Shown here one piece after another: positions 7,875 through 18,985 of a stretch of 64,000 bases of DNA. Location of the stretch: positions 496,001 through 560,000 of the forward strand of contig NZ_AP025592.1 of assembly GCF_023169965.1 (NCBI RefSeq), read 5' to 3'. How positions within the stretch are numbered: the stretch's first letter is position 1; the number at the start of each line of letters is the position of its first letter. This stretch comes from Anaeromyxobacter paludicola. GTDB taxonomy: Bacteria; Myxococcota; Myxococcia; Myxococcales; Anaeromyxobacteraceae. The notes under the pieces are model-generated. The model ran no database searches, was not told where the DNA came from, and was given only the letters and a program-made list of their open reading frames with translations. Made by a program: the position numbers and the translations under genes.

Positions 7875-7894
7875 TCAGCCCCCAGAAAGCGAGA

Positions 7895-7922
7895 AAGCCC
7901 GGCCTCGCGAGAGACCGGGCTT
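7895..7922. terminator. Bidirectional terminator between convergent genes
   Basis: AAGCCCGG (7895-7902) pairs perfectly with CCGGGCTT (7915-7922). The hairpin lies between the plus-strand nucleosidase stop and the minus-strand cold-shock gene stop. Reading the minus strand, the stem is followed by the T-rich TTTCTCGCTTTC, so it works best for cspA. Confidence 0.8.
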
Positions 7923-7945
7923 CCTATCCATTCACCGCGAAGCGG

Positions 7946-8149
7946 TTAGATGGCGCGGACGTTCGCCGCCTGCAGGCCCTTGGGGCCCTTGACGACGTCG
8001 AACTCCACCTTCTGACCCTCGGCGAGGGTACGGAAGCCCTCGGCCTGGATCGCGGTGTGGTGGCAGAACACGTCCTCGCCGCCGCTGTCCTGGGTGATGA
8101 AGCCGAAGCCCTTGGCGTCGTTGAACCACTTCACGGTACCGGTAGCCAT
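7946..8149 (-). CDS. cspA: Cold-shock domain protein
   Basis: A 67-residue single cold-shock domain covering the whole protein. Both nucleic-acid-binding motifs are intact: K-G-F-G-F-I (RNP1) and D-V-F-C-H-H-T-A-I (RNP2, with Cys where Phe-Val is more usual). It binds single-stranded RNA or DNA and melts RNA structure. Upstream on the minus strand there is a leader of about 145 bp with a small hairpin (GGCA...TGCC) and a plausible promoter (TCGACA, 17 bp, TAGACG near 8227-8255). A long structured leader is typical of cold-shock genes. The start is the only ATG in frame with the domain, behind AGAGAAGAAACG. A terminator follows at 7895-7922. It could equally be a constitutive Csp paralogue. 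Confidence 0.95.
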
Positions 8150-8294
8150 TACTGAAACTCGTTTCTTCTCTGTTCCGGCGGCAGAAAGTGCCGTTCGGAC
8201 CCTTCCCGATGCGGGGAGGGAGCAAAGCGTCTACACGAACGCACGGGGAATGTCGAGAGTCTGACGCGCCGGAGTACCCATTTGATACAGGGCC

Positions 8295-12470: not shown

Positions 12471-14091
<1,621 letters not shown>

Positions 14092-14093
<2 letters not shown>

Positions 14094-14270
14094 TGCTCCC
14101 ACCCAGGCCTGCTGCCTACTGCGAGCGACGACCCTCTCGCTGCGGCGGGCGGCCTCGTCGGTGCGCTGCTCGGCGTAGCGCTGCTACGCCTCCGCGGCTC
14201 CCTCCTCGGGCGCCCACCTCGCGTCGGTCTCGTCGCGCTCGTCACGTCCTCAGGCCTGGGTAGGAGCACT
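14092..14270. repeat. MITE-like 179-bp palindromic element with 20-bp terminal inverted repeats
   Basis: The left end (14092-14111, AGTGCTCCCACCCAGGCCTG) and right end (14251-14270) are inverted copies with one mismatch in 20 bp. The centre holds a perfect hairpin (GGCGTAGC 14172-14179, loop GCT, GCTACGCC 14183-14190), and the arms between show patchy complementarity (GCGAGCGACGAC against GTCTCGTCGCGCTC). The whole piece can therefore fold into one long imperfect hairpin. It contains no credible gene. It may be a non-autonomous mobile element or a bidirectional terminator between fumarase and the convergent fdhE. No second copy was noticed in the window. Confidence 0.6.
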
Positions 14271-14281
14271 GACCACGCCGG

Positions 14282-15097
14282 TCAGCGGGGCAGGAGCCAG
14301 CTGCGCCCCAGCGGCTCCCAGCCCTCTGCGGCGACGAGCGCGTCGAGCAGCGGCGAGGCGAGGTCCTCGGCGACCGGCTCGGCGCGCGGCCGCCGCTCGA
14401 GGTGCGCGAGCTTGAGGTAGCCGCGGCAGGCCCGGCACGCCTCGGCCACGAGCCCCGGGCCGCCGCCCGCCACCGCGAGCTGCTCGAGGTCGCCGGCGCC
14501 GCAGCGGGCGCAGGCGCCCCGCGCGCGCGCCCAGCCGGTGCCGCAGAGCCCGCACCAGAGGAGCCGGCGGCCGTCGCCCTCGATGGTCGCCCCGGCCGGC
14601 GGCGCACCGCAGGCCGGGCAGGCGGCGCCCCCGCCCGCGAGCGCGCTCGCTTCGAGCGCGGCGGCGCCCCGGGCGAAGGCCACCTGCAGCCCGGCCGCGA
14701 CGAAGGTGGCGGCGGCCAGCTCGCCGGGGGCCGGCGCGCCCGCGAGCACCCGCTCCGCGAGGGCGGCGAGCTCGGCGTCGCTCGCCGCGGCCACCCGGCG
14801 CGCCGCCTCGCGGGCGGGCGCCGGCAGCGGCCGGCCGGCGAGGGCGGCCGCCACGGCGCGGGAGGCGGCGGGGGCGGCGGGGTCGCGCCAGGCGGCGAGG
14901 TCGAGGGGCGGCCGCGGGCCGGGGGAGGGCAGGGCCGGCGCCGGCGCGGGCAGCTCCGGCGCGGCGGCCGCCTGGGCGGCGGCGAGCCGGGCGCAGAACG
15001 CGAGGAACCCGCTCGCGTCCTCGGGCGCGAGCTCCGCGAGGCGGGCGGCCCGCCGCGCCAGGAGCGCGCCCGGGTCGGGGAGCCGGACCGTCGTCAT
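14282..15097 (-). CDS. fdhE: Formate dehydrogenase accessory protein FdhE
   Basis: A 271-residue cytoplasmic protein needed for maturation or activity of exported formate dehydrogenases. The Ala-rich N-terminal half is weakly conserved (F-L-A-F-C-A-R-L-A-A-A-Q near residue 40). The C-terminal half carries the FdhE rubredoxin-like metal sites: A-C-P-A-C-G-A-P-P near residue 165, L-L-W-C-G-L-C-G-T-G-W near 185, A-C-A-R-C-G-A-G near 200 and E-A-C-R-A-C-R-G-Y-L-K near 225. That makes four CX2C pairs, expected to bind Fe. Its ATG overlaps the stop codon of the Fe-S subunit gene by 4 bp (ATGA), giving a tightly coupled operon: catalytic subunit, Fe-S subunit, FdhE. A shift to a more distant start is unlikely because the frame upstream is the Fe-S subunit's shadow. 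Confidence 0.9.
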   Translation of the reverse strand: MTTVRLPDPGALLARRAARLAELAPEDASGFLAFCARLAAAQAAAAPELPAPAPALPSPGPRPPLDLAAWRDPAAPAASRAVAAALAGRPLPAPAREAARRVAAASDAELAALAERVLAGAPAPGELAAATFVAAGLQVAFARGAAALEASALAGGGAACPACGAPPAGATIEGDGRRLLWCGLCGTGWARARGACARCGAGDLEQLAVAGGGPGLVAEACRACRGYLKLAHLERRPRAEPVAEDLASPLLDALVAAEGWEPLGRSWLLPR

Positions 15098-15798
15098 TCG
15101 CCCCGGAGATCCTGGCGCAGCTTGCGCGCGTAGGGGCGCGGCACCGGGTGGTTCGGGAGGCCGTACTGCTCGGGCCAGCCGAGCGGCAGGACGTACATCA
15201 CGTGCGTCCCGTTCACGCTCTCCGGGTCGTAGAGGGCCGGCTCCGGGAAGCCGCGCTGGCGCAGCTCGGCCATGCGCGCCTCGGCCTTGGCGAGCATCTG
15301 CTCCTTCGTGCCGAAGGAGAGCGCGCGGGTGGGGCAGGTCTTCACGCAGGCCGGGAGCTGGCCCGCGTCCAACCGGTCCTTGCAGAAGTTGCACTTGCGC
15401 GCCTTCTTCTCGGGGCCGGGGCTCATCCGCGGGACGGCGAAGGAGCAGGCGTCCACGCAGTAGCCGCACCCGACGCACCGGTCGTCGCGGTACTCGACGA
15501 GCCCGCTGTCGTGCTGCACGATGGCGCCGCGCTGGCAGGCCTCCTGGCAGGCCGGCTTCTCGCAGTGCTTGCAGCCGTCCTTCATGGGCAGGAGCCGCAT
15601 CCTCCCGCCCACGAGCCGCTCGCTGTAGCGGAGGACGGTCCACATGGTGGCGCTCAGGTCCGCGGGGTTCTGGAGCGTGCCGGTGCAGCGCCCCACCTCG
15701 CCCCGCTGGCCGTTCCACTGCATGCAGGCGGCCTGGCAGCCCTTGCACCCGGTGCACCGGGAGATGTCGATGAGCATCGCGATCCCGCCGCTCGCCAT
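15094..15798 (-). CDS. Formate dehydrogenase iron-sulfur (beta) subunit
   Basis: A 234-residue electron-transfer subunit with cysteine sets for four [4Fe-4S] clusters: C-T-G-C-K-G-C-Q-A-A-C (near residue 16), C-K-H-C-E-K-P-A-C-Q-E-A-C (near 75), C-V-G-C-G-Y-C-V-D-A-C (near 108), and C-N-F-C with a later C-V-K-T-C-P-T (130-155). It passes electrons from the catalytic subunit outward. It has no signal peptide, as expected if it is exported by hitch-hiking on the Tat signal of its partner. Unlike E. coli FdnH (about 294 residues) it ends at K-L-R-Q-D-L-R-G-E with no C-terminal membrane helix. It starts 7 bp after the catalytic subunit stop, behind GAGGGCGAG. The ATG at 15777 is a possible later start. 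Confidence 0.93.
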   Translation of the reverse strand: MASGGIAMLIDISRCTGCKGCQAACMQWNGQRGEVGRCTGTLQNPADLSATMWTVLRYSERLVGGRMRLLPMKDGCKHCEKPACQEACQRGAIVQHDSGLVEYRDDRCVGCGYCVDACSFAVPRMSPGPEKKARKCNFCKDRLDAGQLPACVKTCPTRALSFGTKEQMLAKAEARMAELRQRGFPEPALYDPESVNGTHVMYVLPLGWPEQYGLPNHPVPRPYARKLRQDLRGE

Positions 15799-15805
15799 CT
15801 CGCCC

Positions 15806-18800
15806 TCACGCCTTCTCGAGGCCCACCAGGAAGGCCTTGTACTCGGGGGTCTGGGTGTTCGGGTCCCCGACCACCGGCGTGAGGCCGTTGGTCAGGTGGC
15901 CGGGGCGGGTGAGCCCCTCGAAGCCCCAGTGCAGCGGCAGCCCGACCACGTGCACCGGGCGCCCGTTCACCTCGAGCGCCTTGAGCCGGCTCGTCACCAC
16001 GGCAATCGCCGTGACCTGGCCGCGCCGCGACCGGATCACCACCCGATCGCCGCTCTTGATCCACTTCTCCTGCGCCAGGTCCTCGCCGAGCTCGACGAAC
16101 GCCTCCGGCTGCAGGATGGCGTTCACGAGCGCGTGCTTGCTCCAGAAGTGGAAGTGCTCCGGGACGCGGTAGGTGGTGCCGACGTAGGGGAACTCGGCGG
16201 AGGTGCCGAGGCGCGCGCGGTCGCCGGCGAAGAGGCGCACGGCCGGGTTCTGGGCCGGGCCGGCGTGGAGCCCGTTCCCTTCGACGGGGCTCTCGAACGG
16301 CTCGTAGTGCTCGGGGAAGGGGCCGTCGGCCATCCCGTCGAGCGCGAAGAGCCGGCCGACGCCGTCGGGGTTCATGATGAACGGCGACATGCCCTGCTCC
16401 GGAGCGGCGTCCGGCTTGTAGTCCGGCACGTCCGGGCCGCTCCAGCGGCGCGCCTCGGGATCCCAGCGGACCGGCGCGCGCCGGGGGTCCCAGGGGCGGC
16501 CGTCGGGCGCGCAGGAGGCGCGGTTGTAGAGCACGCGGCGGTTGGCGGGCCAGGCCCAGCCCCAGCCCGGCGCGAGCCCCAGGCCGCCCGGGTCGGCCGG
16601 GTCGCGCCGCGCCATCTGGTTCCCCTTCTCGGTGAACGCGCCGCAGTAGAGCCAGCAGCCGCAGGCGGTGCTGCCGTCGGCCTGCAGGTGCGCGAAGGTG
16701 GCGAGCTGCTCCCCGCGCCGCGCCAGCGGCTTCGCCGGATCCTTCGGGTCCTTCACGTCCTCGAGCGCCTGGCCGTTGTACTCGCGCGCGAGCTCCTCGG
16801 GGGACGGCCGGGTCGGCTCGCGGTAGGGCCAGTGGAGCTGCCGGATCGGCTCGGGGGCGGCGCCGCCCTCCTGCGCGTAGAGCGCGCGGAGCCGGGTGAA
16901 GAGCTCCGCCACGATCTCCACGTCGCCCTTCGCCTCGCCCGGCGCGTCGGCCGCCTTCCAGTGCCACTGCAGCCAGCGGGCCGACGAGACGATGGCGCCC
17001 TCCTCCTCGGCGAAGAGGGCGGCCGGCAACCGGAACACCTCGGTGTCGATCCGGAGCGGCTCGACCGGGTGGAGCTCGCCGCGGGGCTTCCAGAACGTGC
17101 TGGTCTCGGTGGCGAGCGGGTCGATGGTGACGAGGAACTTGAGGCGGGAGAGGGCGGCGGTGTTCTTGTCCTTGTCGGGGAGCGAGGCGAGCGGGTTGAA
17201 GCCCTGGCAGAAGAGCCCCGTGATCTTCCCCTCCGACATGCGCTCGAAGAGCGCCAGGGCGTCCACCGGCTGGTCTACCTTGGGGAGGAAGTCGTAGGCG
17301 AAGCCGTTGGCGGCGGTGGCGGCCGGCCCCCACCAGGCCTTCATGAGCGAGACGTGGAACTTGGGGTAGTTCTGCCAGTAGGAGAGCTGGCCGGGCCGGA
17401 GCGGCTTGCGGGTCCGCTTCGCGAGGAAGCCCTCGAGGTCGCGGTCGGCCTCGGTGGGCATCGTGAGGTAGCCGGGCAGGTTCACCGGCGTGAGGCCGAG
17501 ATCGGTCAGCCCCTGCACGTTGGAGTGGCCGCGCAGCGCGTTCACGCCACCGCCGGGCAGGCCCACGTTCCCGAGCAGGAGCTGGATGACGGCGATGGCC
17601 CGGACGTTCTGCGCCCCGACGGAGTGGTGGCACCAGCCGAGCGCGTACAGGCTGGTCATCACGCGGTCGGGCGCGCTGGTCTCCGCGATGAGCTCGCACA
17701 CCTCCCGGAACTCGCGGAGCGGCGTGCCGGTGACGGCGCAGACCCGCTCCGCGGTGTAGCGGGCGTAGTGCGCCTTCAGGAGCTGCAGCACGCAGCGCGG
17801 GTGCTCGAGGGTGGGATCGGTGAGCGGCTGCCCCTGCGCGTCGAGCTGGTAGGCCCAGCTCGACCGGTCGTAGCGGCCGTGCGCCTCGTCCCAGCCGGAG
17901 AAGAGCCCGCGGTCGAAGGCGAAGTCCTCGCGGACCAGGAAGCTCGCGTTGGTGTACGCGGCCACGTACTCGCGCTGGATCTTCTCCGTCTCGAGCAGGT
18001 GGTGGATGACGCCGCCGAGGAAGGCGAGATCGGTGCCCGGGCGGAGGGGGGCGTAGACGTCGGCGACCGCGGCGGTGCGGGTGGCGCGCGGATCGACCAC
18101 CACCAGCTTCGCCCCGCGGTTCGCCTTGGCCTCGAGCACCCACTTGAAGCCGCACGGGTGCGCCTCCGCCGGGTTCCCGCCCATCACCAGGATGACGTCG
18201 GCGTTCCGGATGTCGATCCAGCCGTTGGTCATCGCGCCGCGGCCGAAGGTGGGGGCCAGACCGGCCACCGTCGGCGCGTGTCAGAGCCGGGCCTGGTTGT
18301 CGATGGCGGTCATGCCCATCGACCGGAGCACCTTGTGCGTCAGGTAGCCCGCCTCGTTCGACGCGGCGGAGGCGGCGAGGAAGCCGACCGTGGGCCAGCG
18401 GTTCACGGTCAGGCCGGCGGCGTTGCGCTCGACGAAGCTGCGGTCGCGGTCCTCCTTCATGAGCCGGGTGATGCGGGAGAGCGCGAAGTCCCACGAGACC
18501 CGCCGGAACGAGGTCTCCCCGGGTCCGCGGTACTCCGGGAACCGCAGCCGGTCGGGGCTCTCGATCAGGTCCGCGAGCCCCGCGCCCTTGGGGCAGAGCG
18601 AGCCGCGGCTCACCGGGTGATCCGGGTCGCCCTCGACGTGGAGCACCTTCTGCCGGCCGTCCACCGCGCCGGAGTAGAGCAGCAGGCCACAGCCGACGGA
18701 GCAGTACGGGCAGGTGTTCCGGGTCTCCTTGTAGCGCTCGAGCTTCGGCCCGAAGACGTCCGCCCGGGCCGCGCGCGGCGCGAACCCGAGCGCGGCCAGC

Positions 18801-18859
18801 GCGGCGGCGCCGAGGCCCGTCGCTCCGGCCTGGAGGAACTCCCTGCGTGTGACGTCCAT
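15806..18859 (-). CDS. Selenocysteine formate dehydrogenase, catalytic subunit (Tat-exported)
   Basis: A 1017-residue molybdo- or tungsto-bis-MGD enzyme oxidising formate to CO2. Read-through of UGA at 18283-18281 joins two frames: the upstream part ends A-I-D-N-Q-A-R-L and the downstream part continues H-A-P-T-V-A-G-L-A-P-T-F-G-R-G-A-M-T-N. This is the active-site sequence of FdnG-type enzymes, with Sec at residue 193. The N-terminus is a twin-arginine signal (T-R-R-E-F-L-Q then a hydrophobic stretch ending A-A-R-A near 33). A [4Fe-4S] site follows: C-P-Y-C-S-V-G-C-G plus S-L-C-P-K-G. The protein is therefore periplasmic. GAGGCG precedes the ATG at 18859. It heads the operon with the Fe-S subunit and FdhE; no membrane cytochrome b gene follows. 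Conventional gene calling would split it or truncate it to 820 residues starting near 18268. Confidence 0.96.
18248..18283 (-). promoter_or_regulatory. SECIS element with UGA selenocysteine codon
   Basis: The UGA (18283-18281) is followed after 18 nt by the loop GGUCU (18262-18258) on a GGCC/GGCC stem (18266-18263 with 18257-18254), extended by GGU (18269-18267) against ACC (18250-18248) across a small asymmetric bulge. The 18-nt spacing and GGUCU loop match, from memory, the E. coli fdhF element that recruits SelB. It lies wholly within the coding sequence, as bacterial SECIS elements do. Confidence 0.88.
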
Positions 18860-18868
18860 CCGCCTCGA

Positions 18869-18887
18869 TGCCCCCTGTGAGGGGGCA
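18869..18887 (-). promoter_or_regulatory. Hairpin in the formate dehydrogenase leader
   Basis: TGCCCCCT (18869-18876) and AGGGGGCA (18880-18887) form a perfect 8-bp stem with a GTG loop, ending about 10 bp before the catalytic-subunit start and just before its ribosome-binding site. It could modulate translation or stabilise the 5' end. A second palindrome, GCAAAGTTTGC (18924-18934), lies further up between the divergent genes and could be an operator. Confidence 0.5.
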
Positions 18888-18985
18888 AGGTAGCACACGG
18901 GCGACCGGTCGCATAGTGAAACTGCAAAGTTTGCGCCGTCTGGCCCTCGACGGCTCAGGGCCATTCGTGGTCTCTTCCGCCTCCC

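Follow-up and report, generated by a model that had tools for sequence, protein, structure and literature searches.

A probable selenocysteine-containing formate dehydrogenase encoded in a cassette without a gamma-subunit gene in Anaeromyxobacter paludicola

Alpha-subunit gene and its in-frame UGA

The window analyzed here, a stretch of 64,000 nucleotides from the genome of Anaeromyxobacter paludicola (0.496–0.560 Mb; GC content 0.747), contains a formate dehydrogenase cassette with the gene order fdnG-fdnH-fdhE. The whole cassette occupies positions 14087–18943 (no strand assigned), as delimited by the blastn alignments on either side. The fdnG-type gene of the alpha subunit is located at 15806–18859 on the minus strand, begins with an ATG at 18859, and encodes 1017 residues followed by the final stop. 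When UGA is translated as selenocysteine, the 1017-residue frame has UGA at one internal position, codon 193 (18281–18283, minus strand), which is read here as selenocysteine 193.

The alpha subunit matches the TIGR01553 model of FDH-N alpha subunits with 1427.2 bits (cut-off 814.2) over model positions 1–1009 of 1009, and the chain of Escherichia coli FDH-N from PDB entry 1KQF with 1428.6 bits, with residues 1–1017 aligned. The UGA at codon 193 is positioned opposite the X of 1KQF chain A, which we take to be selenocysteine. Both the score and the active-site selenocysteine codon place the protein among FDH-N alpha subunits, and the alignment bears out the initial annotation, which had described two frames joined at an active-site UGA encoding Sec193. 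The N-terminus of the protein, MDVTRREFLQ, is twin-arginine-like and presumably constitutes a Tat motif. Cysteines are present at positions 50, 53, 57, and 89, and a Pfam Fe4S4 domain covers residues 44–99.

A plain listing of open reading frames contains an 820-residue frame at 15806–18268 (minus strand) that starts from a GTG at 18268. Its product would lack the signal peptide and the [4Fe-4S] site, as had been predicted, because the twin-arginine start and all four cysteines are encoded upstream. The expectation that automatic annotation would list this 820-residue protein holds for a naive caller of open reading frames, but in one RefSeq record of E. coli the homologue is a single 3051-nt coding sequence that continues across the UGA.

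Since the window is GC-rich and one further frame of the same strand is free of stops across the whole alpha gene, an open frame is weak evidence of coding at this position. Open reading frames longer than 1000 residues from both the plus and the minus strand overlie the alpha stretch. It is the homology to TIGR01553 and 1KQF on both sides of the UGA that raises the alpha frame above chance. The GC content of third codon positions (GC3) is 0.97 upstream of the UGA and 0.98 downstream. A chance open frame or pseudogene was considered and rejected on the basis of this homology, the presence of TGA in homologues, and the intact frame with its even GC3.

Codon 193 was compared in 113 homologous loci including that of the window, which encode 107 distinct proteins and are all readable at this codon. 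Thirty loci, the window among them, come from a search of the family, three from a second search (one repeats a locus of the family search), and the remainder are the best 80 of at least 587 confirmed candidates. In this set, which includes the best 80 of at least 587 candidates, codon 193 is TGA in 112 of the 113 loci and TGC in one. The sole TGC belongs to a Telmatospirillum MAG (L120), in which GCGCT takes the place of the SECIS loop. The cysteine codon and the loss of the loop thus coincide in one example, and selenocysteine was likely replaced by cysteine in this protein.

The 24 genomes of the family, its own included, yielded 48 match rows, of which 36 cover codon 193 and have TGA without exception, whereas the other 12 do not reach it. 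Every match in the 23 relatives searched is at most 67% identical to the window copy, and the 66% complete genome G008 contains no match to the window alpha subunit. Two proteins from genomes of the same family are identical to those of other records, L034 to Anaeromyxobacter oryzae (L064) and L029 to Anaeromyxobacter sp. PSR-1 (L063). In a tree of 41 rows chosen from the 107 (L059 and the incomplete L047, L048, and L049 are among those omitted), the window copy forms a long branch of uncertain placement, and its constraint may therefore be relaxed.

SECIS element and selenocysteine-decoding genes

Beside the in-frame UGA, at 18228–18286 on the minus strand, the sequence matches the Rfam family SECIS_3 (RF01989) with 67 bits in cmscan, above the gathering score of 63, over the full model (1–59), and is assigned to this family. 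The apical GGUCU is positioned exactly 18 nt downstream of the UGA; the legible SECIS of the initial annotation is recovered with its spacing. In the alignment, four stem positions, which make up two pairs, carry the mark for non-standard pairing. The folding energy of the element by itself is unremarkable (z of -1.52), with 18 of 200 shuffled sequences folding equally well or better.

The pairing was surveyed in 81 distinct TGA-bearing homologous 59-mers, from loci that include the best 80 of at least 587 candidates. The pairs of the Rfam model are formed in 90% of cells, in contrast to 31–52% when the pairing is slid by 1–3 positions. Changes on both sides occur in at least four pairs (11-45, 21-33, 22-32, and 24-30), and two pairs are often unpaired, with 8-48 formed in 40 and 15-42 in 34 of the 81 sequences. 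The loop is GGTCT in 41 of them, AGTCT in 39, and AGTTT in one. The pair counts support the element but do not prove it, because the columns are also constrained by the protein and the sequences are related. The entropy of synonymous codons is not lower over the SECIS (mean of 1.018 in 11 columns) than in the 219 other columns (1.012). Some SECIS columns are frozen, such as that of Thr197, encoded by ACG in 104 of the 107 proteins, which include those of the best 80 of at least 587 candidates.

The genome, a single contig of 4.59 Mb that is 99.97% complete, contains the selA, selB, selC, and selD genes that had been predicted from the window, and is assigned the bacterial selenocysteine-decoding trait. 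In the profile search of the genome, selA scores 514.4 bits, selD 391.1 bits, the tRNA-Sec of selC 75.1 bits, and selB 295 bits, or 319.8 bits when its C-terminal part is included; each is over its cut-off. The tRNA-Sec model is poorly specific: a second tRNA of the genome, with 51 bits, is also above the cut-off, and the model fired in 14 of 14 control genomes, in five of them above the cut-off. The selC call therefore rests on the 75-bit match together with ARAGORN, which independently calls tRNA-SeC(tca) at the same site. The gene fdhD is present with 171.4 bits. The selD gene (L060:1065–2093, at about 4260864 of G000:C1) has a UGA near its start, at the beginning of the conserved part, within GAGUACK. 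This is presumably the position at which known selenocysteine-containing SelD proteins have selenocysteine, and SelD, the selenium donor enzyme, is likely itself a selenoprotein.

Matches to SECIS_3 with E up to 1 occur at four places in the genome, two of them above the gathering score, and each of the four lies in a formate dehydrogenase alpha gene that has TGA at the codon corresponding to codon 193. The genome thus holds four alpha genes with UGA at the same codon, the window copy and those of L057, L058, and L059. The fourth alpha gene, that of L059 (about 4.194 Mb of G000:C1), has TGA and GGTCT, with a SECIS_3 score of just 30.4 bits (gathering score 63). It clusters with fdhD and a radical SAM gene that we take to be MoaA-like. 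Next to another selenocysteine formate dehydrogenase, at L058:2765–4948 (about 1.771 Mb of G000:C1), the iron-sulfur subunit and a long hydrophobic membrane part form one fusion protein of 727 residues, the gene of which is followed by an open reading frame labeled as fdhE-like by eye.

It is very improbable that UGA193 reflects a sequencing error, or a nonsense mutation at a single position of a cysteine codon, which would make the window copy a pseudogene. The divergence of the copy and its long branch would fit such a loss, for which the three other alpha subunits could compensate. However, the SECIS scores above its threshold in register with the UGA, the three other alpha genes likewise have TGA at this codon, as do 112 of the 113 loci compared (the best 80 of at least 587 candidates included), the remaining frame is intact with similar GC3 on either side, and the genome has the full set of sel genes. 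A true stop at codon 193, followed by a separate 820-residue protein translated from the GTG at 18268, agrees with the listing of the naive caller, but this reading is scarcely credible. Such a protein would be devoid of the active-site residue as well as of the twin-arginine start and the four cysteines at positions 50, 53, 57, and 89, and its GTG start codon, 12 nt past the UGA, falls within the SECIS. With a probability of roughly 95%, a figure that refers to the selenoprotein and not to its solubility, the product of the gene is a functional alpha subunit of a molybdopterin-dependent formate dehydrogenase and contains selenocysteine.

Composition and genomic site of the cassette

The fdnH-type gene for the iron-sulfur beta subunit is located at 15094–15798 on the minus strand and encodes 234 residues with 17 cysteines (four groups of four). 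The gene for the formate dehydrogenase accessory protein FdhE, at 14282–15097 (minus strand), has an ATG that overlaps the stop of the beta gene (ATGA). Three Pfam FdhE domains are above their cut-off in its product, whereas the match to TIGR01562, with 119.9 bits, is below the cut-off of 187.65.

FDH-N is a complex of alpha, beta, and gamma subunits, in which a C-terminal helix of the beta subunit contacts gamma. The C-terminal membrane helix of FDH-N-type beta subunits was not found in the beta subunit of the window, whose hydropathy over 19 residues peaks at 0.93 anywhere in the protein and at 0.33 in the tail. Its match to TIGR01582 has 253.7 bits, below the cut-off of 334.7, and ends at position 237 of 283. 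In contrast, the beta subunit encoded with a paralogue at 4.406–4.409 Mb, the alpha subunit of which is 68% identical to that of the window, has a hydrophobic C-terminal stretch reaching 1.54. A gene for gamma (cytochrome b) was found neither in the cassette nor elsewhere in the 64-kb window. The gamma model TIGR01583 matches the genome at three places, 4.404, 0.574, and 2.706 Mb, and the match at 4.404 Mb, which adjoins the paralogue, is the sole one above the cut-off.

Among 111 loci with a beta match, which include the best 80 of at least 587 candidates, a beta subunit without the terminal helix was flagged in the locus of the window (L027) and in L059. The flag of L059 reflects a partial match, and its 340-residue beta subunit has the helix. 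The flag applies to beta genes that end within the sequence of their locus, which is not the case in L048 at least, and such loci are not counted apart from the 111.

In G012, an 80% complete genome of the same genus, the two genes that flank the cassette, presumably fumarase-like and DTW-like, are adjacent, with their order and orientation kept. Forty-four nucleotides of G012 separate the two blastn alignments, the inner limits of which are 14086 and 18944 in the window. G012 has formate dehydrogenase alpha matches of its own, with identities to the window copy of 65, 43, and 44%. This near-empty site, the missing gamma gene, and the beta subunit without an anchor extend the description beyond the initial annotation.

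Recent duplication of the 68% identical paralogue within the genome is disfavored by the AU test, with p of 0.0144 for the window copy grouped with L050 and 0.00964 for its grouping with L050 and L038. The force of this result is moderate, because the groups were chosen with the tree already known and the row of the window has a long branch and an odd letter composition. The cassette may have been transferred in or may be an old copy that was lost elsewhere, which corresponds to a gain here or a loss in G012.

Elsewhere in the window, positions 7892–8292 on the minus strand match the Rfam cspA thermoregulator with 83.4 bits (gathering score 78), in a genome that is not enterobacterial.

Proposed function and comparison with known formate dehydrogenases

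By analogy with the known bacterial pathway, from which the selenocysteine insertion, export, and activity of the enzyme are inferred, ribosomes would reach UGA193, where SelB carrying Sec-tRNA(UCA) and held by the downstream SECIS hairpin would insert selenocysteine. FdhE and FdhD would assist maturation, and the alpha subunit would be exported by the Tat system jointly with the iron-sulfur beta subunit. Because the beta subunit is without a membrane helix and there is no gamma gene beside it, we infer a soluble periplasmic alpha-beta selenoenzyme, which may hand electrons to a periplasmic carrier, for example a c-type cytochrome.

It is also conceivable, if unlikely, that the alpha-beta pair is not soluble and docks onto the gamma subunit whose gene, at 4.404 Mb, adjoins the paralogue. 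A gamma subunit above the cut-off does exist in the genome, and the alpha subunits of the window and the paralogue are 68% identical; however, the beta subunit of the window is without the C-terminal helix that is present in the beta subunit of the paralogue. The wider reading, that an FDH-N-type selenoenzyme lost its anchor, moved as a compact fdnG-fdnH-fdhE cassette into one myxobacterial lineage, and became soluble in the periplasm independently of the Desulfovibrio type, is put forward tentatively, at slightly less than even odds. If correct, it would provide a modest example from nature of a membrane-bound respiratory enzyme that became soluble and kept its selenocysteine, and the cassette might be of some use for soluble selenium formate dehydrogenases in CO2 reduction. 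The recoding itself is a textbook event, accompanied by a complete selenocysteine-decoding set in the genome, and is useful for correct annotation.

The closest counterpart is E. coli FdnG (1KQF), which resembles the alpha subunit of the window in the full-length alignment, the X opposite the UGA, and a similar N-terminus. The operon differs from that of E. coli FDH-N in that it comprises alpha, a short beta, and fdhE, without gamma. The initial annotation had likened the locus to E. coli fdhF, the SECIS of which has a similar layout, and the likeness is limited to this layout. The enzyme is of the FDH-N type, since FDH-H (1AA6) matches the alpha subunit with 161 bits, against 1428.6 for 1KQF. 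PDB entries 6SDR, 8CM4, and others are by name selenocysteine-containing alpha subunits, as is predicted for the window, and we take 6SDR and 8CM4 to be soluble selenocysteine formate dehydrogenases of the Desulfovibrio type, which have an alpha-beta layout without a membrane subunit. Chains of this type score 919–927 bits, in contrast to 1428.6 for FDH-N, and any likeness of the window enzyme to them is one of layout and not of closest descent.

Table 3 of Zhang et al. 2006 (PMC1794560) lists 11 selenoproteins for Anaeromyxobacter dehalogenans, including FdhA (3) and SelD; the former entry compares with four UGA-bearing formate dehydrogenase alpha genes in the genome of the window. A passage of the same paper gives FdhA as present in 67 of 75 selenocysteine-using organisms, and an excerpt of a 2007 survey of stop codons (PMC1914089) describes a cluster of 45 formate dehydrogenase alpha subunits with TGA. 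Selenocysteine formate dehydrogenases have long been known, and the gene of the window is ordinary in kind; some novelty belongs to the cassette without an anchor and to nothing else at the locus, with solubility suggested by its gene content.
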